A program made the translations under genes and the position numbers. From positions 1 to 64,000 of the forward strand of contig NZ_JQKO01000017.1 in NCBI RefSeq assembly GCF_000746085.1: a stretch of 64,000 nt of DNA, in the 5' to 3' direction. This document shows, piece by piece, positions 20,118-63,649 of this stretch. The notes below the pieces were generated by a model that saw only the letters and a list, made by a program, of their open reading frames with translations, was not told where the DNA came from and ran no database searches. Every line of letters begins with the position of its first letter. Position 1 is the stretch's first letter. The stretch comes from Methylocapsa aurea. GTDB lineage: Bacteria > Pseudomonadota > Alphaproteobacteria > Rhizobiales > Beijerinckiaceae.

Positions 20118-20234
20118 CTAGAGCGCTTGCCGATCGGACGGGATCATCTGATCGAAAAGGAATTGCTTAGATTCAAAGGGTTGGAGCATGTTCTTATCGA
20201 AAAAATCGATCAACTTTTTCGGAACATGCTCTAG
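20118..20234 (-). repeat. CTAG-bounded double-hairpin repeat, intact copy after etfA
   Basis: It begins CTAGAGCGC and ends ACATGCTCTAG on the plus strand, so the ends are inverted repeats. One hairpin has 10-bp arms GAGCATGTTC (20184-20193) and GAACATGCTC (20222-20231) with a nested CGAAAAA/TTTTTTCG stem; the other half is less regular. Read on the minus strand, the etfA stop TAG is inside the CTAGAGCATG terminus. The same block order recurs at 24722, 25968, 38427, 53091 and 63096, and with different hairpin sequences at 49767. Confidence 0.85.
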
Positions 20235-21175
20235 CGTTCGATCTTGGCCAATTCTTCGTTCAACGCCGGCAAGACCGCAAACAGATCGCCGACAAGACCA
20301 TAATCGGCGATCTGAAAAATCGGCGCTTCCTCGTCCTTGTTGATGGCGACGATGACCTTCGAATCCTTCATCCCGGCGAGATGCTGGATCGCGCCGGAAA
20401 TGCCGACGGCGATATAGAGATCGGGGGCCACAATCTTGCCGGTCTGGCCCACCTGCCAATCATTGGGCGCATAGCCAGCGTCCACCGCCGCGCGCGAGGC
20501 CCCCATAGCAGCGCCGAGCCTATCGGCGACAGGCTCGATCAAGGCGGTGAAATTTTCGGCGTTTTGCATCCCTCGGCCGCCCGAAATGATGATCTTGGCC
20601 GATGCGAGCTCGGGCCGGTCGGTTTTGGCGAGAGCTTCTTCCTTGAAGCTCGAGACATCCGGCCCCGCGACGGAAGCAATTTTCTCGACGGTCGCGGCGC
20701 CGCCTTCGCCGGTGGCCTGAAACGCCGCGGTGCGGACGGTTATCACTCTCTTTCGGTCGGTCGATTGCACGGTTTGGATCGCATTGCCGGCATAGATCGG
20801 ACGCTCGAAAATGTCCGCGGCGATGACTTTGATGATCTCGGAAATCTGCATCACGTCGAGCGCGGCGGCAACTCTCGGCATCACGTTTTTCGCGGTCGAG
20901 GTCGATGCCGAAAGGATCGCGGAATAGCCTTCCGCCAGATGCGTGATGAGAGCCGCGAGCGGCTCGGCAAGCTGATGCGCATAGAGCGGGTCATCGGCCG
21001 CCAGCACTTTTTCGACCCCTGCGAGCTTGGCGGCGGCGTCGACCGCGGCTTGGATGCCCTGGCCGGCGGCGAGGATATGAACCGGCTCCCCGAGCGCCTT
21101 GGCTGCGGAGAGGGTCTTGGCTGTCGCCTCGTTCAGCTGGCCATTTTGAATCTCGGCGAGAACCAAGACCGTCAT
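20231..21175 (-). CDS. etfA: Electron transfer flavoprotein alpha subunit
   Basis: FAD-carrying subunit of ETF, which takes electrons from acyl-CoA dehydrogenases to ETF-quinone oxidoreductase. It has about 314 residues. The N-terminal domain starts [20 protein letters not shown], and the C-terminal FAD domain has [14 protein letters not shown] and the signature [22 protein letters not shown] 21175 shares one base with the etfB stop (TGATG), so the pair is translationally coupled. Its stop TAG coincides with the end of a dispersed repeat. Confidence 0.96.
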
Positions 21176-21924
21176 CAGATCACTCCCGCTTCGTCTTTGA
21201 GCTTGGCGACAAGTTCGGCGGCCGATCCGACCCTGACGCCGGCCTTGCGCGAGGCGGGCTCCACGGTCTTGAGAATTTTGAGGCGCGGCGCGACATCGAC
21301 CCCGAAATCGGCTGGCGACTTCTCCTCGATGGTTTTCTTTTTCGCCTTCATGATGTTTGGAAGCGAGGCGTAACGGGGCTCGTTGAGGCGCAGATCCGTC
21401 GTCACGATCGCAGGCAGTTTGAGAGTGAGAGTCTGCAGCCCGCCATCGACCTCTCGCGTCACGTCGACGGTTCCATCGCCGATGACGACCTTCGAGGCGA
21501 AGGCGCCTTGGCCCCAGCCCAGAAGCGCGGCCAGCATTTGTCCTGCCTGGTTGCAATCATCGTCGATCGCCTGCTTGCCGAGAATGATCAGCCCCGGCTG
21601 TTCGGCTATGGCGATCGCGTGCAAAATTTTGGCGACGGCCAAGGGTTCGACAGCTTGCTCCACCTTGACGAGAATGCCGCGATCGGCGCTCATCGAGAGC
21701 GCGCTCCGGATGGTTTCAGCCGCCTGCGCCGGCCCGATCGAAACTACGATGACCTCCGCAGCCTTGCCCGCCTCCTTGATGCGAAGGGCCTCTTCGACCG
21801 CGATTTCGTCGAATGGATTCATCGACATTTTGACATTGGCGAGGTCGACGCCGGAGCCGTCCGGCTTCACCCGGATCTTAACATTGTAATCGACCACCCG
21901 TTTCACGGGCACGAGAATTTTCAT
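21175..21924 (-). CDS. etfB: Electron transfer flavoprotein beta subunit
   Basis: About 249 residues, beginning [27 protein letters not shown], the standard EtfB N-terminus, with the AMP-site region [29 protein letters not shown] 21924 was chosen over an in-frame upstream start because the family begins MKILV. It is the first gene of the etfB-etfA pair. A 35-bp short repeat lies about 95 bp upstream of the start. Confidence 0.96.
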
Positions 21925-22018
21925 GGAAAAGCTCTTGGTGGCTCCGCCTTCCAGCGGGCGCTGGCGCGAAAACAAGGTGGCGAGCCAAAGCTATCTCGCC
22001 TGGAAAACGCCGCCTCGC

Positions 22019-22053
22019 CTAGAGCGTTTCCCGATCAGATGGATGCGCTCTAG
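22019..22053. repeat. Minimal 35-bp CTAG-bounded repeat
   Basis: It starts CTAGAGCG and ends CGCTCTAG, a perfect 8-bp terminal inverted repeat, around TTTCCCGATCAGATGGATG. It matches only the AGCGC-end half of the longer repeat and lacks the AGCATG hairpin half. It lies between etfB and the glycosyltransferase-like gene. Confidence 0.7.
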
Positions 22054-22137
22054 GTAATAGCGCGGGAAAGCCAAGTCAACAAAGCGCCGCTGGGTTGATG
22101 AAGGCCGGGCCCAGGATTTCGGTTTGGAGCGTTGGCC

Positions 22138-22896
22138 TCACGCGCCGCCGTAACGCGCCTGCGGCGCTCCTTGAAAATGGTGCGCGCCGATGTGGGTGAG
22201 CCTTCCCTCGGTATCGAGCCAGATCTTGCCGCCAATGTCGCGCCATTTCTGGCAGAACCCGAAATCCTCGCTGATATAGGCGTTGGTTTCTTTGTCGATC
22301 ATGCAGTCGAACAGCGCGTAATTGGCGTCGCCCGTCGCGTTGGAATAGGCGTGCGCGCTTCGGTAGCGGGTTTCCGGATAGGCCGCTATCATGCGTTCGA
22401 GAACGCGACGCTTGAGCATCATGAATCCGCCGCCGCAATAGACGCCGGTGGCGAAGCGGCCCTCGCGTTCGAGCGCTCCGCCGGCGCAGAGGGTCCCGAC
22501 ATAGAGCAGCGGCGCGGTCTGAAAGGTCTCGCCGGCGCTCGCCGCCCGCCTGATCGCGGCGCCGCTCCAGTCGATCACCTTGAGGGGGTAGATGCCGGCG
22601 ACGAAGTCCCGATCGAAACTGAGCATCCGCTGGACCTGCTCCGCCTCGAAAGCGATGTCCGCGTCGATGAAGAGGAGATGGGTTGCGCTCGGCGTGTTCA
22701 GAAATTGCGTCACAAGCGTGTTGCGGCTTCGCGTAATCAGCGAGTCATGGCCAAGGAGGGCGAGCGCCGCGTCGAACCCGGCTTGGCTGGCGAACTGGAT
22801 AAGGCCGAGGATCGATTGCATGTAATGCTGCGACACCAGGCCGCCGAAGCATGGCGTGGCGATGAAGACCATTGGGCGGGCGGCGGTTTGCGTCAT
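22138..22896 (-). CDS. Glycosyltransferase-like protein (GT-A fold, DxD motif)
   Basis: About 252 residues. It starts MTQTAARPMVFIATPCFGG and has a nucleotide-sugar type DxD motif in HLLFIDADIAFEAEQVQRML, then GVYCGGGFMMLKRRVLERM and ISEDFGFCQKWRDIGGKIWLD, a pattern like Anp1/GT2-type transferases (SEDxxFC). No membrane segments are present. ATG 22896 was chosen over the longer open frame because family similarity begins there. The sugar and acceptor are unknown, and it stands alone without other polysaccharide genes. Confidence 0.75.
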   Translation of the reverse strand: MTQTAARPMVFIATPCFGGLVSQHYMQSILGLIQFASQAGFDAALALLGHDSLITRSRNTLVTQFLNTPSATHLLFIDADIAFEAEQVQRMLSFDRDFVAGIYPLKVIDWSGAAIRRAASAGETFQTAPLLYVGTLCAGGALEREGRFATGVYCGGGFMMLKRRVLERMIAAYPETRYRSAHAYSNATGDANYALFDCMIDKETNAYISEDFGFCQKWRDIGGKIWLDTEGRLTHIGAHHFQGAPQARYGGA

Positions 22897-23176
22897 GGGT
22901 TTTCCTGCTGAACGAAGCTTGGCGGGCAACGCCGTCCGAGGGCGAAGCGATCTTCCGCCATCGTCTTTGCCGGTGGGCCGGACGATTTTTGAGATCGCTG
23001 GGATTTCTTCTTGACCTCTACCGGTCGAACCCTGCGCGAGCCTGCATCGTCCGCACGGCGGCGCTTGTGTTAAGCCTAATGAAAGCTGAACCCCCACCTG
23101 CCGGCGAATTGGCGCTATGATGGCGATCATCGCCGCTGCAGCTCTGCGACGGCGGCCTCGGATGAAAAGGCGCGTC

Positions 23177-23728
23177 ATGTTGCAAACGTCATTTTTCAAG
23201 GAAGATGGAACGGTTTCGTTCGGCGAGATGCTGGCGGCCTCCGACCAGTTCCTGACCTTATTTCGGGAAGGCATGGACCTTGTCGGCGATGCCGCCGCGT
23301 ATCTCGATGGCGACGGTCGCGAGGAGGCGAGAGCTTTGCCGCGCGCCGCAGCGCTCGCCTATGCGGTCGAAAGCATGCGCTTGACGACCCGGCTGATGCA
23401 GGTTGCTTCCTGGCTCCTGCTCCAGCGCGCCGTCAATGAAGGGGAACTGACCCGGGCCGAAGCCTCGGCCGAAAAGCGGCGAATTTATTTGTCCCGGCAG
23501 CAGGCCGCCGCGAGCGCCGACGTGATGGAGGAATTGCCGCCTCGCCTCCGCGAACTTGTCGAACTGTCGCTGCGCCTGCAGGCGCGCATACTTAATCTCG
23601 ATGAGCAGATCTATCGGACCCGCGGACCGCGCGACGTAGCTGTCTTGGCGCCAAGTCCGGTGGAAGGGCAGATCGAACGGCTTCGGGCGGCATTCGGCGC
23701 TGCGCGCGTGGGGTCGTCGGCGATGTGA
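23177..23728 (+). CDS. RcdA/DUF1465 family protein
   Basis: About 183 residues, mainly helical, beginning MLQTSFFKEDGTVSFGEMLAASDQF. The family (DUF1465) includes Caulobacter RcdA, an adaptor that helps ClpXP degrade CtrA during the cell cycle. ATG 23177 has AAAAGG six bases upstream; ATG 23162 (MKRRVMLQ) is an alternative start. It is conserved in Hyphomicrobiales close to rpmE, as here. Whether this copy has the adaptor role is inference. Confidence 0.85.
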   Translation: MLQTSFFKEDGTVSFGEMLAASDQFLTLFREGMDLVGDAAAYLDGDGREEARALPRAAALAYAVESMRLTTRLMQVASWLLLQRAVNEGELTRAEASAEKRRIYLSRQQAAASADVMEELPPRLRELVELSLRLQARILNLDEQIYRTRGPRDVAVLAPSPVEGQIERLRAAFGAARVGSSAM

Positions 23729-23750
23729 TGCGCAGAGTCCGGAGCGAGCC

Positions 23751-24269: not shown

Positions 24270-24370
24270 GGCCTTCGGCTCCGGTGAGGCGACGCGGTTT
24301 CACCTGCGCTCCGAAGGCTGGCGAAAGAACGGCCGGCGCAGCCTTCAGAACCTCAAAGAGTCCCGCGCGC

Positions 24371-24601
24371 CTATTTCTTGGCGAAGGAAAGTCCGCCGAA
24401 GCGCGAATTGAAACGGGACAGTCGGCCGCCGCGGTCGAGCAATTGCTGGGAACCCCCGGTCCAGGCCGGGTGGGTCTTCGGATCGATGTCGAGATTGAGC
24501 GTGTCGCCCTCGGCGCCATAGGTCGAGCGGGTCATGAATTCCGCGCCGTCGGTCATGACAACCTTGATCAGATGATATTGGGGATGAATATCGGCCTTCA
24601 T
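24371..24601 (-). CDS. rpmE: 50S ribosomal protein L31
   Basis: 76 residues, [29 protein letters not shown], ending FGGLSFAKK. This is the zinc-independent (C-minus) type, since none of the usual four Cys residues is present. ATG 24601 was chosen over a TTG at 24607 because family members start MKADIHP. It is a component of the large ribosomal subunit. Confidence 0.97.
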
Positions 24602-24721
24602 CGTCAAATGTCCTTATGAAATTCATAGCCGATGCGGCGCCGGCGCGCGCAATCCAGCCGCTGAATGGGATCGCGCCCTATAACGCAGCTTTCACGACGA
24701 GACAAGCGAAGGCTGGCGCGG

Positions 24722-24817
24722 CTAGACCTTGGAGCGTCCTCCTGAAGCATGTTTCGATCCGTCGAATCTGAGCGATTCCTTCCCGATCAAATGATTCCAT
24801 CTGATCGCGAAGCGCTC
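24722..24817 (+). repeat. CTAG-bounded dispersed repeat, partly decayed
   Basis: CTAGA at 24722, AGCATGTT at 24747, then GAATCTGAGCGATTCC from 24764 and TCTGATCGCGAAGCGCTC to 24817. The right half aligns closely with the reverse complement of the copy at 20118-20234; the left hairpin is reduced. It accounts for most of the 330-bp gap between rpmE and the cyclase gene, where I see no other feature. Confidence 0.7.
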
Positions 24818-24932
24818 AAGGGCGGCGGAACTGATCGGGGGGCAGGTTCTGATTTGGACTAAGCTAACGGAGTCCCACATCGCCGAAGGATTGTTTGCGC
24901 GAGCCGCCCGGCTGGACCCGAACAAGGTCGCC

Positions 24933-25784: not shown

Positions 25785-25967
25785 TCCGGTTCAATACTCC
25801 CGGCATCTATCGGTCATAAAACTCGCCAAAATCGGCAGAATCAGCTTAGACTAAAATTGCGCGCCTGAGTGTTATTTTCAATGTTCAATCCGCGCGGACA
25901 CACGATTCATAAATTGATTTTTCGTAAGGGCCGCCATTCCTGAGGGGGCTCCCCTAATTTAGGCGCA

Positions 25968-26070
25968 GGAGCATGTGGCTGAAAAGGTTGGCCGACTTTT
26001 TCAATCCCGACACGCGCCGAGCCTTTAAGATCCTTTGCCATTCCCTTTCGATTGGACCGTTCATTTGGGG
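25968..26070 (+). repeat. Decayed copy of the CTAG-bounded dispersed repeat
   Basis: GGAGCATGT, GAAAAGGTTGGCCGACTTTTTC, then CCTTTAAGATCC and TTCCCTTTCGATTGG follow the same block order as the reverse complement of the copy at 20118-20234. One plus-strand frame reads LADFF, recalling the IDFF frame of the copies at 20 kb and 38 kb. Confidence 0.5.
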
Positions 26071-26209
26071 CGTCGAGCCGCAGCAGCGAAACCGCGCCCC
26101 CAAAAACGCGCACACTAGACTAGAACCATGGCCGGAGTGTTTGCGCAAGCGCGCGCCGCGAGGCCGAGCTTTACTCGCACGGCGCTATTGTGTACCGCTC
26201 GCCGCCTGA

Positions 26210-38357: not shown

Positions 38358-38730
38358 CTTTGCGCTCCCTCGACAGCGCCCGAACCGATCTTTACGCGCG
38401 GCCCCGCCCGCAGCCCATTATCAATATTAGAACATGTTGCGAAAAAGTGATCGACTTTTTCGATCAGGGCGCGCTCCAATTCTTTGAATCTGAGCGATTC
38501 ATTTTCGATCAGACGATTCCGCCGGATTGGGAGACGCTCTCATGCGCGGCAGGCGTCCCTCCTTGTCGCCAAGTCAAATTTCGCATCCACCCCACGCGGC
38601 GCCCGCTCTCGCTCGTCTTTGAGACTTCTCTCTCGCGCCGCCTTGCGTTAAAGGCGCACACCCCTTAAACGCGGCGGAAGCAGCGGCCGTTCCCGTCGGT
38701 CGCATCCCTATTCTCTGGTCCGGATCGAGA
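38358..38730. other. Intergenic region between sigma factor gene and fabI
   Basis: 373 bp between divergent genes. A dispersed repeat fills 38427-38540. The remaining 190 bp before fabI has no ORF, tRNA or hairpin that I can support. The fabI and sigma promoters must be here. Confidence 0.6.
38427..38540 (+). repeat. CTAG-type dispersed repeat, near-complete copy
   Basis: It starts TTAGAACATGTT, contains CGAAAAAGTGATCGACTTTTTCG and TTTGAATCTGAGCGATTC, and ends GACGCTCT. It aligns over its whole length with the reverse complement of the copy at 20118-20234. The terminal CTAG has been lost at both ends. It does not touch a coding sequence. Confidence 0.75.
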
Positions 38731-40130: not shown

Positions 40131-43100
40131 ATGTCGCACCGTTCGGCGACCGCCGCAGCATTGCTAGCGAAAAACGATCGCTTCGCCTTGACGCCCCTCT
40201 CAGGCAGCGTCTTGCGCGGTCCGGTCCAGCCGGAGTTGATCCGTGATGAACTGCTGTGCGAACTCTTCGCCGCCACAGTCGCCGCGCATCCTTCATCCAT
40301 CGCGATGGCGACGCTGGAGAGCAGACTTACCTATGCCGAGGTCGACGCGAAGGCCGAGGCGCTGGCCCGCGGCCTTCTCCGCATGGGGCTACGGCCGGGT
40401 CGGGTCGCCGGTCTTTGGATGGCGCGCGGCCCCGATCTGCTGATCGCTCAAATCGCGATCGCGAAGACGGGCGCCGCCTGGCTTCCGTTCGACGCCGATG
40501 CGCCGCCAGAACGCATCGCCGCTTGTCTTGGCGACGCTGAAGCGGCCGGCGTTCTGGCCTCGGCGGCCTTTGCGCCAAGGCTAGCGGATTTGTCTCCTTG
40601 TCCGGCTTGGACGTCGCAAGACCTGATCGACCCGGCGGACAGGACCCCAATCGATGCTCGGGCGCTCGGCGCGACGCCGGAGGATCCCGCCTACCTCATT
40701 TACACCTCGGGCTCGACTGGAACGCCAAAGGGAATCGAAATTTCCGGCCGCAATATTTGCCATTATTTGCGCGCGGCGAATGAAGTCTACGGAGTGAAGC
40801 AAAGCGACGTCGTGTTCCAGGGCGCGTCGGTCGCCTTCGACCTGTCAATGGAAGAAATCTGGCTTCCCTATCTTGCCGGAGCGACTCTTTTCGTCGCGAG
40901 CCCGGAAATCATGGGCGAGGCGGACAGACTCCCCGATGTTCTCGAGGCCCATCGCGTCACGGTGCTCGATACCGTGCCGACTTTGCTCGCTCTGCTGCCG
41001 CGCGACATCGCCACCTTGCGGCTGATCATTCTCGGCGGCGAAGCCTGTCCGCCGTCGATCGCCAGCCGCTGGTGCAGGCCGGGCCGCAAGATCTTCAATT
41101 CTTACGGGCCGACCGAAACCACGGTCGTCGCCACGGTCGCGGAAGTTCGCCCAGGAGCGCCGGTCACGATCGGGCGGCCGATCGCGAATTATACCTGTTA
41201 TGTGGCCGACGAGGGCTTGGGTCTCGTCGGGGCGAATATCCAAGGCGAACTTCTCATCGGGGGTCCTGGCGTCGCCAAAGGCTATTTGCGCCGGGATCGG
41301 CTGACCGCCGAGAAATTCATCGCCAATCCATTCCCGGCCGAATTTTCCTTGTCCGGCGGGGTCGATCCGATTCTCTACCGGTCTGGCGACGCGGTCGAAA
41401 TCGCCGCCAATGGCGACCTCGTCTTTCACGGCCGCATTGATGATCAAGTGAAGATACGTGGTTTTCGGGTCGAACTCGGCGAGATCGAAGCGAGACTTGC
41501 GGACCTTCCCAGCATTTCGCAAGCCGCCGTAGTGTTGCGCACCGATAACGGGCTCGAACAGCTTGTCGCCTTTGTCGTCCCGGCCCGCGCTGCCTTGGCG
41601 CAGCAGTCCCCAACTGATGGTCAAGGCGGCGCCGATGATTCCGGCTCCTTGAACACAGGGGGACCCGAATTCGAGACGCGGGTCGTTCGCAACGAACTGC
41701 GCGCGACTTTGCCGGCCTATATGGTGCCGGCCCATTTCGAAACCGTTGAGAGCCTTCCGACGCTCGCCTCCGGCAAGATCGACCGCAAGAATCTAAAGTT
41801 GGTCGCGCTGACCGCCCACGTTTCCGACGAAGCTCAGGAAGAGCCGCGCACGAAAACAGAAGCCGTGCTTCTCGACGCCGCCAAACGCGTTCTGCCGCCG
41901 CAGGCAATCCCTCTCGATGCGGATTTCTTTATCGATCTTGGCGGCCATTCTTTGCTCGCTGCGCGCTTCATCTCGGTCGTGCGAGAGACGCCCGCTCTTT
42001 CGCGCATCACCTTGCAGGATGTCTATGCCGCGCGTTCGCTGCGCGCGATGGCCGAACTTCTTGACCGCAAATGGGCGCATGCCGCCGTTGTCGAGGACTT
42101 ATCCTTCGCCCCGCCGCCTTTGTTGCGGCGCTTCCTCTGCGGGCTTGCGCAGGCGGTGGCCCTGCCGGTCATTCTCGGTCTGGTGACCCTGCAATGGCTC
42201 GGCGTTTTCGTGAGCTACATGCTTCTCACCGGCGCCGATGCGAGCTTCGGCGAGGAGGTGATTTCGCTCATCGGCGTCTATATGTGCATCAATGTTGCGA
42301 CCGTGGCGATCGTCATTGGCGCGAAATGGCTGCTGATAGGGCGGACCAAGCCGGGTCGCTATCCTTTATGGGGCGTCTATTATTTTCGTTGGTGGCTGGT
42401 GAAGCGGTTTCTCGGCCTCGTTCATATCAAATGGTTTCAGGGCTCGCCGTTCATCCGGCTTTATCTGCGCGCGCTCGGCGCCAGGATCGGGAACGATGCA
42501 ATCCTTGGCGAGATCGAGGCGGGAGCTGTCGATCTCATATCGATCGGCGCTGGCGCCAGCGTCGGATCCATCGCCAATTTGGCCAATGCGCGGGTCGAGG
42601 GAAACGAGCTCATTATCGGCGCCATCGAAATTGGCGCAAATGCCTATATCGGCTCCTCCTGCGTGATCGAGGAGAATGTCGTCATCGGCGAGGGGGCCGA
42701 ACTCGCCGACCTGACCTCGATCGGGGCCGGAGGCCGCGTCGGCGCCTGGGAGGCATGGGACGGGTCGCCCGGCCGCAAGGTCGCATTGGTCGATCGCGCC
42801 GCGCTTGATCCGCCTCCGGAGGCTTCGCCCGCGCGGCGGCGCGGCATGACGATCATGTATCTTATTCTCTTGCTGGCGATTCCGCCGCTCGGCCTGTTGC
42901 CGATTTTTCCCGCCTTCTGGGTGTTCGACCGGATCGACGATATGATCGGAATCGCCGATATCGATCGCACGCTCTACATGGCCTCGATTCCAATCATGGC
43001 CTGGCCGACGGCTTTCGTGATGGTTCTCGTCACCGTCGGCTTCATCGCGGCTTGCCGCTGGGTGATCCTGCCGCGCGTGCGCGAGGGGACCTATTCGGTT

Positions 43101-44288
43101 CACTCCTGGTTCTATTTGCGCAAATGGGCAGTGGCGCTCGCAACTGAAATCACGCTCGAGACTTTGTCGTCTCTGTTCGCGACGGTCTATATGCGCGCTT
43201 GGTACCGGCTGATGGGCGCTAAAATCGGCAAGGACGCGGAAATCTCGACCAACCTATCCGGCCGCTACGACCTCGTCGAGATCGGCGAAAAATGCTTCAT
43301 CGCCGACGAAGTCATCCTCGGTGATGAGGAAATCCGCAATGGCTGGATGTACCTGAAAAAGGTCAAGACCGGGCCGCGCGTTTTCGTCGGCAATAATGCC
43401 GTGGCGCCGGCGGGCTCCGATATTCCGGCCAATGCGCTGATTGGCATCAAATCGAAGCCGCCCGCGAACCATCTGATGAGCGAGGGCGATACCTGGTTCG
43501 GCTCGCCGCCGATCAAACTGCCTCTCCGGCAGAAGTTCGACGCCGGCGGAGCCAACTGGACCTATGAGCCGCCGCGCTGGAAGAAATTCGCCCGCGCCTG
43601 TTTCGAGGCAGTGACGATTTCAATGCCGACCATGCTGTTCATCACCTTCGGAACCTGGGCGGTGGAATGGTTCAGCAAGAGCGCGCTCGAAGGCGCCTAT
43701 TTCGAGGTGCTCGGGGATTTTACCCTGGCGTCGATCGTCATTTGCCTCGCTCTGACCGTCGTCGTCATCGTGCTGAAATGGATCACGATGGGACGCTACG
43801 AGCCGATGATCCGACCGATGTGGTCCTGGTGGGCCATGCGGACGGAGGCGGTGGCCGTCATTTATTGGGGTATGGCCGGCAAGGTCCTACTCGATCATTT
43901 GCGCGGCACCCCATTCCTGCCTTGGCTGATGCGCGGCTTCGGCATGAAGCTCGGACGCGGCGTCTATATGAACATGACCGACATTACGGAGTTCGACTGC
44001 GTCAGCGTCGGCGATTTCGCCGCCCTCAATGAACTCTGCGCCTTGCAAACGCACCTGTACGAGGACCGGGTTATGAAGGTGGGCAGAGTTTTCGTTGGCA
44101 AAGGCGTGAGCGTCGGAGCCGGCTCGACCGTGCTTTATGACACGCTTGTTTCCGACTATGCGCGGCTTGGACCCTTGACCTTGGTGATGAAAGGCGAGCA
44201 AATCCCGGCTCATTCCGAATGGGTCGGCGCGCCCGCCGAGCCCAAGTCCGCTTCCGAACGCCTTATAGACGACAAGGCGGCGGCCTGA
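40131..44288 (+). CDS. Stand-alone NRPS-like protein, Pls/PosA family
   Basis: 1385 residues. Adenylation domain, about 40-550: A3 YTSGSTGTPKG from Tyr191, A4 VAFDLSMEEIW, A5 NSYGPTETTV, A7 YRSGD, A8 GRIDDQVKIRGFRVELGEIE, A10 GKIDRK. Carrier domain: LGGHSLLAAR with the phosphopantetheine Ser607. There is no condensation or thioesterase domain. The C-terminal 750 residues contain several transmembrane helices separated by three blocks of left-handed beta-helix hexapeptide repeats (LGEIEAGAVDLISIGAGASVG, KIGKDAEISTNLSG, VGKGVSVGAGSTVL). This is the polylysine-synthetase-like layout in which the membrane part polymerises one amino acid. The monomer and product are unknown. No PPTase gene is nearby. 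Confidence 0.93.
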   Translation: MSHRSATAAALLAKNDRFALTPLSGSVLRGPVQPELIRDELLCELFAATVAAHPSSIAMATLESRLTYAEVDAKAEALARGLLRMGLRPGRVAGLWMARGPDLLIAQIAIAKTGAAWLPFDADAPPERIAACLGDAEAAGVLASAAFAPRLADLSPCPAWTSQDLIDPADRTPIDARALGATPEDPAYLIYTSGSTGTPKGIEISGRNICHYLRAANEVYGVKQSDVVFQGASVAFDLSMEEIWLPYLAGATLFVASPEIMGEADRLPDVLEAHRVTVLDTVPTLLALLPRDIATLRLIILGGEACPPSIASRWCRPGRKIFNSYGPTETTVVATVAEVRPGAPVTIGRPIANYTCYVADEGLGLVGANIQGELLIGGPGVAKGYLRRDRLTAEKFIANPFPAEFSLSGGVDPILYRSGDAVEIAANGDLVFHGRIDDQVKIRGFRVELGEIEARLADLPSISQAAVVLRTDNGLEQLVAFVVPARAALAQQSPTDGQGGADDSGSLNTGGPEFETRVVRNELRATLPAYMVPAHFETVESLPTLASGKIDRKNLKLVALTAHVSDEAQEEPRTKTEAVLLDAAKRVLPPQAIPLDADFFIDLGGHSLLAARFISVVRETPALSRITLQDVYAARSLRAMAELLDRKWAHAAVVEDLSFAPPPLLRRFLCGLAQAVALPVILGLVTLQWLGVFVSYMLLTGADASFGEEVISLIGVYMCINVATVAIVIGAKWLLIGRTKPGRYPLWGVYYFRWWLVKRFLGLVHIKWFQGSPFIRLYLRALGARIGNDAILGEIEAGAVDLISIGAGASVGSIANLANARVEGNELIIGAIEIGANAYIGSSCVIEENVVIGEGAELADLTSIGAGGRVGAWEAWDGSPGRKVALVDRAALDPPPEASPARRRGMTIMYLILLLAIPPLGLLPIFPAFWVFDRIDDMIGIADIDRTLYMASIPIMAWPTAFVMVLVTVGFIAACRWVILPRVREGTYSVHSWFYLRKWAVALATEITLETLSSLFATVYMRAWYRLMGAKIGKDAEISTNLSGRYDLVEIGEKCFIADEVILGDEEIRNGWMYLKKVKTGPRVFVGNNAVAPAGSDIPANALIGIKSKPPANHLMSEGDTWFGSPPIKLPLRQKFDAGGANWTYEPPRWKKFARACFEAVTISMPTMLFITFGTWAVEWFSKSALEGAYFEVLGDFTLASIVICLALTVVVIVLKWITMGRYEPMIRPMWSWWAMRTEAVAVIYWGMAGKVLLDHLRGTPFLPWLMRGFGMKLGRGVYMNMTDITEFDCVSVGDFAALNELCALQTHLYEDRVMKVGRVFVGKGVSVGAGSTVLYDTLVSDYARLGPLTLVMKGEQIPAHSEWVGAPAEPKSASERLIDDKAAA

Positions 44289-48999: not shown

Positions 49000-49770
49000 A
49001 TGTGCGGATCGCGCGCCTTGCGCCTCGGCGTCAACGTCGATCATGTTGCGACATTGCGCAATGCGCGCGGCGGGACTTTTCCCGATCCGCTGCGCGCCGC
49101 GCTCCTTGCGATCGAGGCTGGCGCCGACGGAATCACGGCGCATCTGCGCGAAGACCGGCGCCACATCAATGATGACGACATGGCGCGGATCAAGGCCGTC
49201 ATTTCAAAGCCGCTCAATTTCGAAATGGCGGCGACGGAACTGATGCTCGATATCGCCCTCAAGACCAGGCCGCACGCGGTCTGCCTCGTGCCGGAGAAGC
49301 GGACGGAACGCACCACCGAGGGCGGCCTCGACGTCGTCGGCGGACATCATTATCTGAAGCCTTTCGCCTCCGAACTCGGACGCGTGGGGATCAGGGTCTC
49401 GCTCTTCATCGAGCCCACGATCGAGGCGATCGAAGCGGCGGTTTCGATCGGCGCGCCAGTTGTCGAACTCCACACCGGCGCTTGGTGCAATGCGCTGTCG
49501 CTTGGCGAGGAGATCAAAGCGGAACAGGAATTCGGCCGCCTCAAATCAGGCGCCGCGCACGCGGCCCTATGCGGCCTAGAGTGCCACGCCGGCCATGGCC
49601 TCGATTTCGATACGGCGCGCAAGATCGCCGGCCTGCCGCAGATCGTGGAATTAAATATAGGCCACTTTCTGATCGGCGAGGCGATTTTCATAGGTCTCGC
49701 CGCGGCCATCGCCAAGATGCGCGCCGCGATCGAGGCGGGGCGGGCGCAGGAGATGGCGAAGGCGCTCTAG
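49000..49770 (+). CDS. pdxJ: Pyridoxine 5'-phosphate synthase
   Basis: Last step of DXP-dependent vitamin B6 synthesis, 256 residues, TIM barrel. N-terminal [19 protein letters not shown], catalytic [21 protein letters not shown], and [18 protein letters not shown] match the family. ATG 49000 begins immediately after the rsh stop TAG with no base between, so translation is coupled. The stop TAG at 49768-49770 is also the CTAG end of a dispersed repeat. Confidence 0.97.
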
Positions 49771-49894
49771 AGCATGATGCCGAAAAGTGGAAACCGGTTT
49801 TCGGACGACATCATGCTCTAACTCTTTGATGAGAGGCGGATTCAGACTTTGGACGAGATCGCGTTGCGATTCCGTCCAAAGTCATCCGGCTCTA
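49767..49894 (+). repeat. CTAG-bounded double-hairpin repeat, second sequence type
   Basis: It begins CTAGAGCATGATG at the pdxJ stop and ends GGCTCTAG. Hairpin 1 has arms AGAGCATGATG (49769-49779) and CATCATGCTCT (49809-49819) with inner CCGAAAA/TTTTCGG. Hairpin 2 has perfect 11-bp arms GACTTTGGACG (49845-49855) and CGTCCAAAGTC (49873-49883). The spacer TAACTCTTTGATGAG resembles the CAACCCTTTGAATCT spacer of the other type. The first hairpin belongs to a palindrome widespread in Hyphomicrobiales genomes, by my recollection. The remaining gap to 50308 holds nothing I can name. Confidence 0.85.
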
Positions 49895-50308
49895 GCATTC
49901 CATATTTTGGAGATTCTGAATCGCTGATGCTCTGCGCGCATCAGGGGTGATTATGTCATCGGTACGCTGGCGGACCCGGATGCGGTTCCAATCATTGATG
50001 AAGCCGGGTTTCTGAAGTAGGGCGAGGCCTCATCCGGCGTTGGGCGCCAATATAGCGGCCGGCCCGGCAAGATCGCCAACCGCAAGTTCGGCGCGTTCGC
50101 TGCTTATGCGTCTTGCATATCGGCGGCCGATCATCACAAATTTGTGCGCTGATCCCAACGGTCCTATTCCCGACATGTTTGGCGGCCATCACGTCTGTCG
50201 AAATCCGTTTGTTAACCTTTCAGCAAGGGTCGAGAGGTTCATAAGAGCCTTGATAGTCTCGCGGATCCTCACCTGGATAGACGCTCAATTTTGCAGAAGC
50301 GAAACCAT

Positions 50309-52944: not shown

Positions 52945-53090
52945 GATCTTCCTCCATGGAATGGATGAGAGGAAAACCAGCTGCGTGATGCAAGGTTCCA
53001 TCGGCGGACGAGCCAGAGTGGCGCAGGCGCGCCAACGGAACTTTACTTGAGGGGGGGCAGGGAGCTGGCGCGCCGAGTCCATGCGAGCCT

Positions 53091-53175
53091 GCTCGAACGC
53101 CTTGAACCGGAGCAAGTCCATTCTGACCAGATGGACCCCTCCGATGGGCAAGCGCTCTAACTGGAAAATGCTCTA
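53091..53175 (+). repeat. CTAG-type dispersed repeat, partial, after the DUF934 gene
   Basis: GCTCGAACGCCTTGAACC, GAGCAAGTCCATTCTGACCAG and AAGCGCTCTAA align in order with the reverse complement of the copy at 20118-20234. Then ATGCTCTAA follows, so on the minus strand the DUF934 stop is the TAG of TAGAGCAT. The first hairpin is missing. Confidence 0.65.
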
Positions 53176-53682
53176 ATTGCCGGTGCGGCGCGCCCAGGGC
53201 CGGGTCGACTCCGCGGCTTCAACGCCAAGGCCAGGCTGATAGAAAAGGCCGAGGCCGGGCCGGCGTCCGGCCGTGAGCAGCCGGACAGTCGCCGGGTCGC
53301 TGATTTCAAATGCATCGAAGCCGCAGCGGGCCAGCAATTGCAACTGATCGAACAGGATGTCGCCTACCGCCCGCAATTGCCCGCAAAAACCATAATCGCC
53401 GCGGATCTGATGCGCCATTGAGAAGCCGCGGCCATCGGAGAATTTGGGAAAATTGACGGCGACGAGGGCGAGGCGGGGAAGATCTTGCGCGATCGCTTGG
53501 ACCGCCGCGCCGGGCTCGAGCCGCAGGCCGATCGGAATATTGGCGGTCTCGAATTGTTCGCGCTTCTCTTGCCATTGCGGCAGCGTCAGGATGACTTTGC
53601 CATCGAGTGGAAACGCCTCGTCCGGCGCTGCGGATCGCCAGTCATCGGCGACGAATGCGTCATTGGTGAACAAGAATGCCAT
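53173..53682 (-). CDS. DUF934 family protein, sulfite reduction cluster
   Basis: About 169 residues (MAFLFTNDAFVADDWRS, FPKFSDGRGFSMAHQIRGDYGFCGQLRAVGDIL, QLQLLARCGFDAFEI). DUF934 proteins accompany the hemoprotein sulfite reductase and CysH in Alphaproteobacteria and other Proteobacteria; the exact role is not established, though assembly or electron supply for the reductase has been proposed. ATG 53682 lies 4 bp after the cysH stop. It is the last gene of the DUF2849-cysI-cysH-DUF934 operon. Confidence 0.92.
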   Translation of the reverse strand: MAFLFTNDAFVADDWRSAAPDEAFPLDGKVILTLPQWQEKREQFETANIPIGLRLEPGAAVQAIAQDLPRLALVAVNFPKFSDGRGFSMAHQIRGDYGFCGQLRAVGDILFDQLQLLARCGFDAFEISDPATVRLLTAGRRPGLGLFYQPGLGVEAAESTRPWARRTGN

Positions 53683-53686
53683 GTTC

Positions 53687-54466
53687 TTAGATGTCCGAAG
53701 CAGCATCGCGCGCGGGCGCGTCAAGCGGATGCGGGAGAGGTTGAGAAAGCGCTTGCGTATGCAGCCCGCATTCTAGCTTGCCTTTGTCGCGCCAGCGCCC
53801 GGCGCGCGCGTCTTCGCCCGGCTTCACCGGCGAGGTGCAAGGGATGCAGCCGATCGAGGGATAGCCTTTGGCGACGAGCGGGTGGCGCGGCAAGGCATGC
53901 GCATCGAGATAGCCGATCAGTTCGCGCGCGGACCAGCCGGCGAGCGGATTGACTTTGATGCGGCCTCCTTCGCCCTCGACCTCGAACAACGCCAGGGCAG
54001 CCCGCGTCGTCGCTTGAAAGCGCTTGCGGCCGGTGATCCAGGCGTCGAAACCTTCGAGCGCTTTGGCCAGCGGAGCGACCTTGCGAATCTCGCAGCAACG
54101 ATCCGGGTTGTTGGCCCAAAGGAAGGTTTCGGGATCTTCCTGCGCGAGCTGGTTTTGATCGGGTCCGATGTTGATCACGTTGCGGAGGTCAAGACGCGCG
54201 ATCAGCGCGTCGCGATAGGCGAGAGTCTCTGGAAAGAGGACCCCAGTGTCGATGAAAAGGACCGGCGCGGCTCTATCGATTTCTGCGACCATATGGAGCA
54301 GCACGGCGGATTCAGCGCCAAAGCTCGAGACAAGAGCGATCTTGCCGGGGAACAGATCCGCAATGACGAAACGAAGAAATTTCGCCGCATCCATCGCGGC
54401 GAATTTGGCCGACAGCCGGCTCGCGGCGTCGGCGTCCGCGAAAAGCGCCACATCAGTCGCGCTCAT
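53687..54466 (-). CDS. cysH: Phosphoadenylyl/adenylyl-sulfate reductase
   Basis: Reduces APS or PAPS to sulfite, about 259 residues. P-loop-like ALVSSFGAESAVLLHM; iron-sulfur Cys pairs RCCEIRKVAPL and IGCIPCTSPV, which mark the [4Fe-4S] type that usually uses APS; the catalytic Cys is in the C-terminal ECGLH. ATG 54466 overlaps the cysI end by 14 bp. Because of the cluster, APS reductase activity is the better guess. Confidence 0.94.
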   Translation of the reverse strand: MSATDVALFADADAASRLSAKFAAMDAAKFLRFVIADLFPGKIALVSSFGAESAVLLHMVAEIDRAAPVLFIDTGVLFPETLAYRDALIARLDLRNVINIGPDQNQLAQEDPETFLWANNPDRCCEIRKVAPLAKALEGFDAWITGRKRFQATTRAALALFEVEGEGGRIKVNPLAGWSARELIGYLDAHALPRHPLVAKGYPSIGCIPCTSPVKPGEDARAGRWRDKGKLECGLHTQALSQPLPHPLDAPARDAASDI

Positions 54467-56111: not shown

Positions 56112-56112
56112 G

Positions 56113-58415: not shown

Positions 58416-58433
58416 CGTAAAAGGCAAAAGTTC

Positions 58434-59507: not shown

Positions 59508-60123
59508 TCCACCGTGGGGAAGGGCGATCGCCATTTCACCATGAAGAGGCGGCTTCGGCCGCCCGCCGAGGCTCGGCGATGTCATCCGCCGTTCCCCGCC
59601 ACCTGCATTTGTCGTGGCGGCTGCCGCCTCGATAGGGGCAATCGGGGGCAAATCCTTCTTCAGGGCTCTGGATGGGGCGGCATAGGCCGCGTCCCTGCCG
59701 CCTGAGCGGCGCGGCCCGAGAAAATCCGAACCCTCCGGTCTGGGTCCTTGCGCAAAAGCCTGGCCCGGCGCCATGCGGCTTGCCGAACACATTCGAGCCC
59801 TTATATCGCTCTATGGCAATCGTGCGGTCTTTTGTGCTAGCAATCGGAAGCGCGGGCATTCCCTCGCCGGGTGAGACGATTTTGCTTTTCGCCTCGTTCT
59901 CCACTGCCGCCTTACTCGGCCCCCTGTCTGGGGCGTCATCGCTTCGTGGGGGGCTGCTGAATCGGGGACAATCGAGGGGCGATCGGAGGGCGCATGTAAA
60001 TGGTCGCTTCTTGCGCGCCGCACCGGCCTCGTCGGCGGACGAGAGAAGCCGAATCCACGATTTCTCAACCGGGAGGCGGTCGAGACCTTGTTCGAGCCAG
60101 CGCCTCGCAGTTTGGAGCCTTAA
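59508..60123. other. 616-bp gap between cysA and dedA
   Basis: No credible full gene. A plus-strand frame around 59813-59930 reads SAGIPSPGETILLFASFSTA, similar to the ESAGLPLPGETALLLAGA motif of the DedA protein that follows, which suggests a decayed duplicate of the dedA 5' part. The flanking codons carry no further similarity that I can see. No terminator hairpin is clear after cysA. Confidence 0.4.
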
Positions 60124-60765
60124 GTGTTCTTGAACGATATCCAGCCGCTCATTATCCAACATGGTTATTGGGCTGTTTTCCTGATCGTCATGCTGGAAAG
60201 CGCTGGCTTGCCGCTCCCCGGCGAGACGGCCTTGCTGCTCGCTGGAGCCTATGCTGGGGCCACCGGAAACCTCGACATTTCCTATGTCATCGCGGCGGCG
60301 GCGGCGGGCGCCATCATTGGCGACAATATCGGTTTTTGGGTCGGCCGGACATGGGGCGCCAATCTTCTCGTGCGCTACGGAAGGTTCATCCATTTGCCTG
60401 AGGGACGGCTGAAGCTCGGACAATATTTGTTCAAGAAGCATGGCGCGAAAATCGTATTCTTCGGCCGCTTCGTCGCTTTTCTAAGGGTTCTCGCGGCCTT
60501 GCTCGCCGGCGTCAACAAATACAGTTGGGGCCAATTTCTCTTCTACAACGCCACTGGCGGCATTGTTTGGGCGGGCGTGATGGGGATCGGCTCTTATGTT
60601 TTCGGCGATGCGGTTCATCGCGTCAGCGGCCCGCTCGGAATTGCCGCGCTCATAGGGGTTGTCGGCGGCGCCGTCGCCTTCATGATTATCGTTCGCCGCG
60701 AAGAAAGGAAGATGGAGAAGCGCTTGGCGGCGGTCCGCGACGGCGATCTTCAAACCCTGCTGTGA
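60124..60765 (+). CDS. DedA family membrane protein
   Basis: 213 residues, starting at GTG 60124. The core motif is VMLESAGLPLPGETALLLAGAYAG, then IGDNIGFWVGRTWGANLLVRYGRF, GAKIVFFGRFVAFLRVLAALLAG (the FxRFxPxxR-like Arg helix) and several transmembrane helices. DedA/SNARE-associated proteins act in membrane homeostasis, including undecaprenyl-phosphate or phospholipid flipping. There is no ATG alternative near the start. It stands alone. Confidence 0.92.
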   Translation: MFLNDIQPLIIQHGYWAVFLIVMLESAGLPLPGETALLLAGAYAGATGNLDISYVIAAAAAGAIIGDNIGFWVGRTWGANLLVRYGRFIHLPEGRLKLGQYLFKKHGAKIVFFGRFVAFLRVLAALLAGVNKYSWGQFLFYNATGGIVWAGVMGIGSYVFGDAVHRVSGPLGIAALIGVVGGAVAFMIIVRREERKMEKRLAAVRDGDLQTLL

Positions 60766-60878
60766 TGAATTTTATTTGGATCCGCGCGTTCAGCGAGACC
60801 CCTGTTGCGGCCCTTGCCGAGATCGTCGCCCCCGCCCGCAGCGGCGGGCGCCGTCGGGCGGGGGGGGGAGCATAGGCC

Positions 60879-61166
60879 TCAAAGCCAGCGTCGGCCGCTT
60901 GAACCGGCGCCATAAGCGTTGCGGCCAACCAAAAGATGCCAAACATAAAGGACTATGACGGAGCCGGCCGTCGCGCCGAGCAGTCCGGCTCCTTGATCTA
61001 ATCGGTACCATCCGATCGTCTGGCCGAGCCAGGTCGCCACAAAGGCTCCGCTGATTCCGAGCAGGATCGTCATGATGAAGCCGCTCGGATTATAAGGCGC
61101 TGGATAGATAAAGCGCGCGATAAGTCCAGCGACCAGGCCGATGATGAGAATCCAGATAATATGCAT
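60879..61166 (-). CDS. GlsB/YeaQ/YmgE-type small membrane protein
   Basis: 95 residues, three transmembrane helices: MHIIWILIIGLVAGLIARFI, GFIMTILLGISGAFVATWLG and GLLGATAGSVIVLYVWHLL. This pattern with Gly-rich helices is that of the transglycosylase-associated stress family (GlsB/YeaQ). ATG 61166 was chosen over a longer open frame. Function is unclear, linked to stress response by family. Confidence 0.92.
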   Translation of the reverse strand: MHIIWILIIGLVAGLIARFIYPAPYNPSGFIMTILLGISGAFVATWLGQTIGWYRLDQGAGLLGATAGSVIVLYVWHLLVGRNAYGAGSSGRRWL

Positions 61167-61256
61167 GAGCGTCTTACCTCGCCAGTTGCGATTGATGCGA
61201 GGTGAACGCCGCCGCGATGCGGTGGTTGCTTGGAGCCGGGCCAAGCACCGCGTCCT

Positions 61257-62126
61257 TCAACTCCGCTCCAGCCGAGCGATCAGGCTTGAGGTGTCCCATC
61301 TCGCGCCGCCCATGCTCTGGACCTCGGCGTAGAATTGATCAATGAGGGCGGCGACGGGCAGGCTGGCGCCGTTGCGGCGCGCTTCCTCGAAGCAGATCGC
61401 CAGATCCTTGCGCATCCAGTTCACCGCGAAGCCGAAGTCGAACTGGCCCGCGATCATCGTCTTGTGCCGGTTTTCCATCTGCCAGGACTGCGCTGCGCCC
61501 TTCGAAATAACCTCGATGACCGCGTGCGGGTCGAGGCCCGCGCATTTGGCGAAATGGAGGCCTTCGGCCAGAGCCTGCACGAGCCCCGAAATGCAGATCT
61601 GATTGACCATTTTCGTCAGCTGGCCGGAGCCGGTTGGCCCCATCAGGCGGCAGGCTTTCGCATAAGACAAGATGACCGGCTCGGCCCTGGCGAAATCCGC
61701 CGGATCGCCGCCGCACATGATGGTCAGCGCGCCAGTCTCGGCGCCGGCCTGTCCGCCCGAAACCGGCGCGTCGATGAAGCCTTGTCCTGACGCTTGCGCA
61801 AGCGCGTGAAGCTCGCGCGCGACTCCGGCCGAGGCGGTGGTGTGATCGACGAAGACAGCGCCCTTCGCCAGCCCGCCGAAGGCCCCGTCTTCCCCAATCG
61901 CCACCGCGCGGAGGTCGTCATCATTGCCGACGCAGGCAAACACAAATTCCTGTCCGGCTGCGGCTGCGCGGGGCGTCGGCTCCAAACGGCCGCCGAATTC
62001 TGCTACCCATTGCGCGGCTTTTTTGCCGGAGCGGTTGTAGACGGTGACCTCGTGGCCCTTCTTTTGAAGGTGGCCGGCCATGGGATAGCCCATGACGCCG
62101 AGGCCAAGGAAAGCGACCTTCGCCAT
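61257..62126 (-). CDS. NAD(P)-dependent oxidoreductase, 3-hydroxyisobutyrate dehydrogenase family
   Basis: 289 residues. Rossmann motif FLGLGVMGYPMAGHL at the N-terminus; substrate-binding DAPVSGGQAGAETGALTIM; catalytic Lys in GSGQLTKMVNQ; C-terminal helical domain NRHKTMIAGQFDFGFAVNWMRKDL. Members act on 3-hydroxyisobutyrate, tartronate semialdehyde, succinic semialdehyde or related acids; the sequence alone does not fix which. It lies 84 bp downstream of the solute-binding protein gene on the same strand. Confidence 0.92.
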   Translation of the reverse strand: MAKVAFLGLGVMGYPMAGHLQKKGHEVTVYNRSGKKAAQWVAEFGGRLEPTPRAAAAGQEFVFACVGNDDDLRAVAIGEDGAFGGLAKGAVFVDHTTASAGVARELHALAQASGQGFIDAPVSGGQAGAETGALTIMCGGDPADFARAEPVILSYAKACRLMGPTGSGQLTKMVNQICISGLVQALAEGLHFAKCAGLDPHAVIEVISKGAAQSWQMENRHKTMIAGQFDFGFAVNWMRKDLAICFEEARRNGASLPVAALIDQFYAEVQSMGGARWDTSSLIARLERS

Positions 62127-62210
62127 TGCTGCCTTTCCGCGCGATTCCCATCATGGCCGCGCCTATCAATTCAGCGGATCGCGAATGCCCGCGCCCGCAC
62201 CCGCATCGCA

Positions 62211-62990
62211 CTAGTTGATGGCGAAATCAAAATATTTGGCGCTGATCTTGGCGTAGGCGCCATCAGCCTTGCTTGCATCCAATGCCTTTTCGAACATCGC
62301 TTTGAGCGTCTCATCTTGTTTGCGAAGGCCGATGCCGACGCCGTCTCCAAAATAGGCCGGGTCGCGCGGGACGTCGGCAATGAGCATACAGCATTGCGCT
62401 TCTCTGCGCGTCTTTAGGAAGTCGGCAATTGCGTCCTTGTCGCCGAGAACGGCGTCCAGGCGCCCTTCCGCCAGATCGAGAATCGCTTCTTCCAGGGTGG
62501 CGTAGGGATGGATCTCAGACTGCTTATAGAGATCCTCGACATAGGCCTGATGGGCGCCGCCAGATTCGACGCCGATGTTTTTGTCGGCGAGTCCGGCCGG
62601 ACTTGCATCCTTGACGCCGTCCTCGCGCAAAGCCAGGAACGCGGACGGCATCTGGATGTATGGCTTGCTGAACGCGATCTTTTCGCGCGCCTCGTCGGTG
62701 ATTTCCATGGCGGCCATGATCGCATCATATTGATGATCGAGCAGGCCTGGAACGAGGCTGTCCCAGTCTTGTGCGACGAAACTGCAGGACACGTTCATGC
62801 GGGCGCAGAGATCGCGCGCGAGATCGATTTCGAACCCGGCGAGCTCATTATTGTCGAGGTAATTATAGGGCGGACGCGCGCCTTCGCTGGCGATCTTGAC
62901 TGCGGTCCAGACTGTTGCGTCGCTTGCTTTGGAGCCAGAGGAAAGCGGCGCCGCGCAGGCGAGGAGCAAAAACATCCAGCGCAAGAACAT
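62211..62990 (-). CDS. Amino-acid-type ABC transporter substrate-binding protein
   Basis: Family 3 solute-binding protein of about 259 residues. Signal peptide MFLRWMFLLLACAAPLSSG; binding fold starts with ASEGARPPYNYLDNNELAGFEIDLARDLCARM; hinge residues DAIMAAMEITDEAREKIAFSKPY and LDAVLGDKDAIADFL are typical of lysine/arginine/ornithine-type proteins. The start is uncertain because the signal region has tandem 15-bp repeats giving Met at 62990 or 62975, or TTG 62999. No permease or ATPase gene is adjacent, so it is an orphan here. Confidence 0.88.
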   Translation of the reverse strand: MFLRWMFLLLACAAPLSSGSKASDATVWTAVKIASEGARPPYNYLDNNELAGFEIDLARDLCARMNVSCSFVAQDWDSLVPGLLDHQYDAIMAAMEITDEAREKIAFSKPYIQMPSAFLALREDGVKDASPAGLADKNIGVESGGAHQAYVEDLYKQSEIHPYATLEEAILDLAEGRLDAVLGDKDAIADFLKTRREAQCCMLIADVPRDPAYFGDGVGIGLRKQDETLKAMFEKALDASKADGAYAKISAKYFDFAIN

Positions 62991-63015
62991 CCAACGCAAG
63001 AACCACCAACCGAAA
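62971..63015. repeat. Tandem 15-bp repeat at the start of the binding-protein gene
   Basis: Two near-identical units (AACATCCAGCGCAAG, 62971-62985; AACATCCAACGCAAG, 62986-63000; one mismatch), then a diverged third. On the minus strand they encode (M)FLRW repeats at the signal-peptide start, so unit-number changes would alter the signal n-region without changing the frame. Confidence 0.7.
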
Positions 63016-63649
63016 GACGCCAGATTGAGGCGGGGGGCCCATAGAAGAAAATCAGTCGGGGCGCGTGCAAACAGGGACCTGCTCCTCGGGTTTTCCGAGA
63101 GCGCTTTCCGATCGAATGGAGTCCTTCGATCGATCAGAAATCGCTCCAGTGCTAAAGAGGTTGAGCACGATCCCAGGACGCTGGGCGCCTTTTGGCCAAG
63201 ATCATGCGTTGACGCCTGAAGATTACAAGCATGATCGCTGCAATGTGAAGCCGCGATGTTTCAGATTTCAAAATAATGCGCGGCGGGCGCTGCTTGCGCA
63301 TCTATCCCCTGTCCGCCTCGCTGTCTGCCGCACAATCGACCAAGCGTCTTATTTCGGCTTTCGAAGCTAGAGGCAAGCAGCGGTTTCGATGTTCCCCGCG
63401 GCGCTTTGGAAGCCCGAACGAAAGCTGTCCTCATACGAAAATGTATCGGTCCCGACAGATTGGCGCAGGTCTTGCTGTTGCAGCGCCAATCGAATGCAGC
63501 GCCAATCGAAGCCGAGGCGGGACCTTTAATGCGCCTCGGAGCCGACAAAGCGCGACATGGCCCGATGCCAGATGGCTGCCGCGATTGAATGGAATGCGAC
63601 AAGCCTCTATATGTCCGGCGGCGACGTCAGGAATGGAGCGATATCAGGA
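63016..63649. other. Gene-free region before the Mrp gene
   Basis: 634 bp between divergent genes. A partial dispersed repeat occupies about 63096-63165. The rest has several short open frames with Arg/Ser-rich composition typical of chance in high-GC DNA. No tRNA or hairpin can be supported. The promoters of both flanking genes should be in it. Confidence 0.5.
63096..63165 (-). repeat. CTAG-type dispersed repeat, partial copy
   Basis: GAGAGCGCTTTCCGATCG, then ATCGATCAGAAATCGCTCC and AGGTTGAGCACG follow the order of the copy at 20118-20234 on the plus strand. The AGCATG hairpin is lost. Confidence 0.5.

Follow-up and report, generated by a model that had tools for sequence, protein, structure and literature searches.

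Two-hairpin repeats of Methylocapsa aurea as probable miniature transposable elements of the IS630 type, often placed at stop codons

A 64,000-bp stretch of DNA from the alphaproteobacterium Methylocapsa aurea (contig NZ_JQKO01000017.1, positions 1 to 64,000; hereafter, the window) carries several copies of a short repeat that is built of two hairpins and bounded on both sides by CTAG or a close variant. Taken together, the data make it very likely that these repeats are gene-less miniature transposable elements of the IS630/Tc1-mariner type, mobilised in trans by IS630-family transposases; the role of such a transposase as the mover is putative and deduced from sequence comparison. The initial annotation of the window had offered a non-autonomous mobile element and a processed RNA structure as alternatives; the former is supported by filled and empty sites with duplication of TA, by copies throughout the genome, and by covariation in the stems.

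A full copy comprises two hairpins, each closing with GAGC and GCTC, and the element proper, from GAGC to GCTC, measures ~110 bp. The consensus of hairpin 1 reads GAGCG, 14 bases, GGAATC, 18 bases, and CGCTC, and includes a one-sided bulge; a 15-base spacer separates it from hairpin 2, whose consensus is GAGCATGTTC...GAACATGCTC. A covariance model was built from 22 full copies and run on the window, on the organism's own genome (G000, 3.97 Mb), and on its congeners (other G-codes; 15 genomes of the genus including G000). The block order first described (CTAGAGC, hairpin, spacer, hairpin, GCTCTAG) was borne out in the 22 aligned copies. Subfamilies exist within a single genome: type I, a G013-like type, and a type represented by the window copy at 49767, which resembles repeats abundant in Rhizobium plasmids, presumably Rhizobium-specific intergenic mosaic elements (RIMEs). 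Their stems differ, with the GAGC feet kept. One copy (L246) joins a hairpin 1 like that of type I to a hairpin 2 of the RIME-like 49767 type, which makes the word "mosaic" apt here as well. Several G000 copies carry a perfect palindrome, GAGACATCGGATATATCCGATGTCTC, in hairpin 2; it stands beside the normal loop in L030 and replaces the loop in L020, L026, L029, and L254.

The comparison of orthologous gaps in sister genomes, which the initial annotation had proposed, recovered both filled and empty sites. Forty copies were fetched from G013, and the joined flanks of 26 of these were searched in its sister genome G014 (97% identical to G013 at one locus). Thirteen of the 26 sites are filled in G014, with 113 to 119 bases between the flanks; six are empty, two hold shorter stretches, and five are undecided (L116, L119, L127, L131, L135). 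Four of the six empty sites reveal an exact duplication of TA, the target being CTAA once (L115) and CTAG three times (L123, L125, L136). The empty site corresponding to L115 reads cagt-CTAA-gcgcc, and the filled one cagt-C-TA-[GAGCG...GCTC]-TA-A-gcgcc; at all four exact sites, an empty C-TA-R corresponds to a filled C-TA-[GAGC...GCTC]-TA-R. The element is GAGC...GCTC flanked by a duplicated TA. It follows from these exact insertions that the terminal CTAG, first taken for the repeat's own terminus, is only partly element sequence: at each end, the outermost base comes from the host, the TA is the duplicated target, and only the innermost base belongs to the element. Among the 48 copies with TA at both ends, the outer bases read CTAG, CTAA, or TTAG in 43 (16/20 in G013 and 27/28 in G000), and this outer base is variable to the left as well as to the right of the element. 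Since a CTAG target becomes two CTAG sites on insertion, copies can pile up side by side; element ends abut at a shared CTAG in L120 (G013) and in L239, L240, L247, and L253 (G000), and L216 (G000) probably also abuts another element end.

Were the repeats old and static, the empty sites would have arisen through deletion. Traces of shortening do exist, as the L130 site in G014 holds a 54-bp shortened copy and the L120 site only 53 bases between its flanks. However, four of the six empty sites are base-exact, with one TA and no scar, and the copies fetched from G013 and G000 belong mostly to different subfamilies, as after separate amplification; we therefore consider the deletion scenario very improbable. 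In G013, a single near-identical subfamily accounts for most of the 40 fetched copies; in G000, the 22 best-scoring of 40 copies are mostly of another. Both 40-copy sets comprise the best-scoring copies and are probably biased toward young ones.

Another alternative is an origin as repetitive extragenic palindromic (REP) elements or the related REPIN type. On that account the repeats would be moved by a REP-associated tyrosine transposase (RAYT) or an IS200-like Y1 transposase, and CTAG would be a tetranucleotide tag. GTAG REPs are moved by Y1 transposases. They are reported to be mostly intergenic hairpins with a tetranucleotide tag at one end, their termini often supplying the TAG stop of neighbouring genes (PMC3733652), and the repeats described here share the hairpins, the mostly intergenic placement, and the donation of TAG stops; additionally, a lone CTAG empty site fits insertion beside a tetranucleotide as well as duplication of TA. 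However, the outer base is variable on both sides rather than on one fixed side, and IS630 elements agree with the repeats in their four terminal bases and in their flanks. Y1_Tnp domains gave 0 matches in 12 of the 15 genomes (including G000, G007, G013, and G014), with matches in G006, G008, and G011. This absence in 12 genomes largely refutes a RAYT or REP origin, which appears highly unlikely.

The transposable element interpretation is also consistent with the spread of the repeats. A covariance-model search beyond the window, likewise proposed at the outset, found at least 150 matches in G000, and by reading, 149 of the best 150 represent distinct places. Matches were present in all 15 genus genomes, from 3 (G012) and 5 (G010) up to at least 150 (G000 and G002); a scan of the family with stricter filters returned matches in 56 of 119 genomes and 26 of 43 genera. 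These per-genome figures are matches among the best 150 scored candidates (the best 31 in the family scan) and not copy numbers, since near-symmetric copies, of which G013 has many, can match on both strands. Querying named genomes with a 26-base pattern identified 20 stretches, 14 of them from one Xanthobacteraceae metagenome-assembled genome (MAG), two from Ancylobacter, one from Bosea, and three from other MAGs. At ~117 bp and with many similar dispersed copies, the repeats have the size and distribution of miniature inverted-repeat transposable elements (MITEs).

Stem pairing bears on a further alternative, namely that the repeats are structured RNAs or cis-regulatory 3′ elements (terminators, or sites for RNase III or RNase E) maintained by selection, with their spread secondary. 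Pairing is maintained in 92.7% of alignment cells. The covariation that the initial annotation expected in the stems was found by two measures: the covariation score and the number of cells in which both sides had changed (28), each reached by 0 of 500 shuffles. Two other measures fell within the shuffles, as both-side changes in 8 of 38 pairs were reached by 39/500 and further pair types by 241/500; in all of these tests, the structure was drawn from the same sequences that were tested. Three copies fold stably as RNA (z about −8 to −12), and copies often stand directly at stop codons, both of which agree with an RNA role. Yet match numbers differ widely among the genomes of one genus (3 to at least 150), a close relative lacks the element at 6 of 26 sites, and the window gave 0 matches to any Rfam family at the gathering score.

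The hairpin arms suggest a second origin for the covariation. Outer arms are perfectly complementary over 17–27 bases at 8 of 160 hairpin ends, though three of these eight share one variant and no measurement from the end was possible for 45 of the 160; the arms of most sibling copies stop at 5 bases (hairpin 1) or 8–10 bases (hairpin 2), at a one-sided bulge or mismatch. Template switching in quasipalindromes has been reported to yield such perfect arms (PMC8794818, PMC7202029), and at least part of the covariation looks as if one hairpin arm had been rewritten from the other. Part of the covariation may thus be mutational, and the covariation does not amount to proof of an RNA role. The processed RNA structure suggested initially is a possible reading: the stems do covary, though apparently in part through rewriting of arms. 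As the primary explanation of the repeats, selection on a structured RNA seems unlikely. This copying of arms is also a caution against reading an RNA function from covariation alone in such repeats.

Many copies end at stop codons. Element ends were compared with the stops of frames open for at least 150 codons, with the other two frames as control. In G013, 23 of 80 ends (21 of 40 copies) fall at stop codons, as compared with 3 and 2 in the other frames; with 600-bp flanks, the G000 set has 12 of 80 ends (11 of 40 copies) at stop codons against 5 and 2. Three window copies follow this pattern, and the early description of all copies as lying between genes must be amended for them. The TAG stop of etfA (electron transfer flavoprotein alpha; 20231..21556, minus strand; Pfam ETF and ETF_alpha) occupies 20233–20231 and consists of the target TA and the element's G. 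The same is true of the TAG at 49768–49770 that ends pdxJ (49000..49770, plus strand; Pfam PdxJ and open reading frame end), and a DUF934 gene (53173..53724, minus strand; assigned by sequence, open reading frame end, and Pfam) has its TAG stop at an element end, at 53173–53175.

The etfA stop was compared in 13 genomes. A type I copy is present there in G000 and, in opposite orientation, in G007, while G008 has a RIME-like end of ~13 bases. The stop is a plain TAG or TAA in G012, G011, G005, G002, G009, and G010 and a TGA in G001, G013, and G014; the comparison gives no clear reading for G006. Among CTAR/YTAG sites of the window outside the elements, 8 are stop codons, 49 intergenic, and 37 coding, counts that are only a guide, since the rough gene caller behind them missed etfA. 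Stop codons thus make up ~8 of 57 non-coding sites, and survival alone may not explain the placement of half of the G013 copies. The comparison sets a stop-codon share against a site share across two genomes and is no more than suggestive; we infer that the bias partly reflects targeting, not only survival.

These observations can be combined in a proposed mechanism. An IS630-family (Tc1/mariner-type) transposase would act in trans on the ~110-bp two-hairpin element and insert it at TA, with a preference for C-TA-R, and the TA would be duplicated. Both ends of the element begin with G, so a stop codon (TAA or TAG) that receives the insertion at its TA would read TAG in either orientation. Because TAG would always be rebuilt, stop codons would offer a harmless landing place, and transcripts of such genes would bear hairpins at their 3′ ends. 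A niche of this kind would explain how many insertions are borne at little cost, as well as the hairpins found right after some stops.

The IS630 family is a plausible source of the transposase. Its members duplicate TA; ISY100 insertions in vitro had a normal TA duplication in 34 of 39 cases, with five irregular (PMC2170065), and Tenzen and Ohtsubo (1991), cited in the same paper, name in their title a preference of IS630 for the TA within CTAG. DDE_3 transposase domains were identified in all 15 genus genomes. When 31 loci were scanned for ends, paired TA-GAGC ends at 16/24 or better were recovered at seven (L185, L186, L188, L191, L199, L208, L212). Five IS630 elements could be measured, at 1046–1054 bp with CTAG, CTAA, or TTAG flanks; those at L188 and L208 are close relatives. 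As compared with IS630, the repeats share the TA target and the preference for CTAG, but they are too short to encode the transposase that IS630 carries. Across 14 insertion sequence (IS) ends, which were chosen for GAGC so that this shared motif is a selection criterion, G21 and C25 are invariant and a GAATC box is mostly present; hairpin-1 ends carry the same box. Beyond GAGC, the hairpin 1 of the 49767 type matches the best IS end, that of a G007 IS630, at 17 of 21 positions (0 of 20,000 shuffles); the 20118-type consensus matches its best IS end at 14/21 (23 of 20,000) and the G013 type at 12/21 (400 of 20,000).

Several observations weigh against mobilisation by IS630 as set out here. Hairpin 2 does not clearly match IS630 ends, with 10/21 for the 20118 type (3682 of 20,000 shuffles), 11/21 for the 49767 type (986 of 20,000), and 13/21 for the G013 type (109 of 20,000); the six element ends of the three types were all tested without correction for multiple tests. 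Three of the seven loci with paired ends (L188, L199, L212) hold the same element, and the remaining 24 of 31 loci gave other, single, or no ends. In the organism's own genome, DDE_3 gave only three matches, of which one contains an internal stop and another falls below the cut-off, and their surroundings yielded no element with GAGC ends; the mobiliser of this genome may have been lost. The remaining two empty sites depart from the simple pattern: at L134 the target is TTAG and one side of the filled form bears an additional TA, and at L137 the filled form implies CTAA while the G014 counterpart (L156) reads ATGG and has no TA site. This ATGG may be a scar or the result of divergence. Movement is read from the comparison of genomes, not seen directly. 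The stop-codon excess in G000 also depends on the setting, as among ends with an intact stop triplet a 100-codon minimum gave 14 against 7 and 5 and an 80-codon minimum 16 against 13 and 7, and with 200-bp flanks there was no excess (11 against 12 and 4, from 49 ends); the 200-bp and 600-bp tests used partly different sets of copies.

The surroundings of the transposase genes include some additional features. The three DDE_3 matches of G000 (L112–L114) lie within 9 kb of one another on a 26-kb contig (C24). An 881-bp stretch in G011 (L212:92–974) with TA-GAGC ends of its own adjoins an IS630 copy at a shared CTAG; it too is flanked by CTAG, CTAA, or TTAG. Transposase fragments of 117 bases with equal scores occur on five contigs of G008 (C3, C154, C273, C296, C306); two of these fragments lie at contig edges, and together they probably represent an insertion sequence whose multiple copies interrupt the assembly.

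Several described repeats resemble those reported here. RIMEs, attributed to Osteras et al. in 1995, are reportedly intergenic mosaic elements of about 110–130 bp with two large palindromes; the present repeats, too, have two palindromes and a mosaic interior, as seen in their hairpins and in L246. Querying plasmids with the 49767 copy returned 1243 places in 342 records (331 Rhizobium, 8 Sinorhizobium, and 3 others), which are presumably RIMEs. Among the plasmid matches listed, coverage of the query is about 60–67%, and in none of the records does it reach 80%, so that the hairpin-1 half of the copy is unmatched. Two of these places were inspected; each is bounded by CTAG on both sides, and two hairpins can be discerned by eye. 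A 20118-type copy had no match in the same plasmid collection.

Two small-RNA screens in Sinorhizobium set RIMEs aside as repeats, one of them describing such sequences as of unknown function (PMC2573895, PMC2245857), and in the excerpts covered by a limited literature search, no assignment of RIMEs to the IS630 type was found. For repeats of this kind, the filled and empty sites supply a mechanism and a rule for the target, and they point to transposases that can be tested as candidates. Another parallel is RUP (repeat unit of pneumococcus) of Streptococcus pneumoniae, a non-autonomous 107-bp element with a TA target and about 110 copies, for which trans-mobilisation by IS630-Spn1, with similar ends, has been proposed (PMC2229807, PMC3049150). 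The repeats described here are likewise short and non-autonomous, use a TA target, and have a proposed IS630 mobiliser. In contrast to RUP, whose terminal inverted repeats are very similar to those of its IS, each end of the present repeats folds on itself, the two ends have hardly more than GAGC in common, and stop codons harbour many of the copies. A wider proposal would unite RIME-like repeats across Hyphomicrobiales in a single superfamily of IS630 MITEs with hairpin ends: stop codons would be their self-repairing niche, folded ends rather than long linear inverted repeats would be recognised, and many genes would have been given 3′ hairpins; this we regard as doubtful at present.

Within the window, the covariance model gave eight matches with E < 1e-3 at seven sites, the eighth match (20181–20303) being a reverse-strand reading that overlaps the 20118 copy. 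That copy is a full-length type I element (20118..20234, plus strand; E 8e-27). By analogy with the filled and empty sites, its element proper (GAGC...GCTC) spans 20121–20231 and its TA target duplications lie at 20119–20120 and 20232–20233. Its hairpin 1 (20121..20168; GAGCG..., with GGATC where IS630 has the GAATC box) and hairpin 2 (20184..20231; GAGCATGTTC...GAACATGCTC), both on the plus strand, are drawn from structure and DNA folds. A 35-bp internally deleted copy with CTAG and termini at both ends (22019..22053, plus strand) was recognised by sequence and is comparable to the 54-bp deleted copy at the L130 site in G014; it is too short for the full-length model, which scores it at only E 0.89. 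On the minus strand, a partial copy at 24742..24820 retains hairpin 1 with the rest decayed (E 6e-11, and a DNA fold), a weak and decayed copy lies at 25966..26086 (E 5e-4, with a fold no better than shuffles), and a nearly full-length type I copy at 38427..38542 (E 1.7e-20) has a fold that alone is not clearly above shuffles.

The full-length copy of the RIME-like subfamily occupies 49767..49895 on the minus strand (E 2e-9), and at 49895, where its hairpin 1 terminates, it is similar to the end of an IS630 element; it had been singled out early for having other hairpin sequences in the same layout, and it does represent a different subfamily. The minus-strand copy at 53059..53175 is either decayed or composed of two overlapping copies, as it has two TTAGAGC ends (E 1e-5 for 53059–53160). 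In the last copy (63096..63212, plus strand; E 1e-10), hairpin 1 is intact and of the type that dominates the G013 copies fetched, and the second half has decayed. In DNA folding, shuffles folded as well in 24/200 cases for 53091–53179, 172/200 for 25968–26070, and 19/200 for 38427–38543; the remaining folded copies were better than shuffles (0 or 1 of 200 as good). The copies listed in the initial annotation are thus present beyond chance by sequence and by covariance model, those at 53059 and 25966 being weak or decayed, with the exception of a tentative one at 10421–10500, which is unsupported and was rejected, as the model found no match there up to E = 1. The rarity of CTAG noted at the same time holds for the window, with 28 occurrences against 63 expected. 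Apart from the repeats, the window encodes, at 40131–44288, a single-module non-ribosomal-peptide-like enzyme of 1385 residues, in which AMP-binding, carrier, and hexapeptide-repeat domains were identified.

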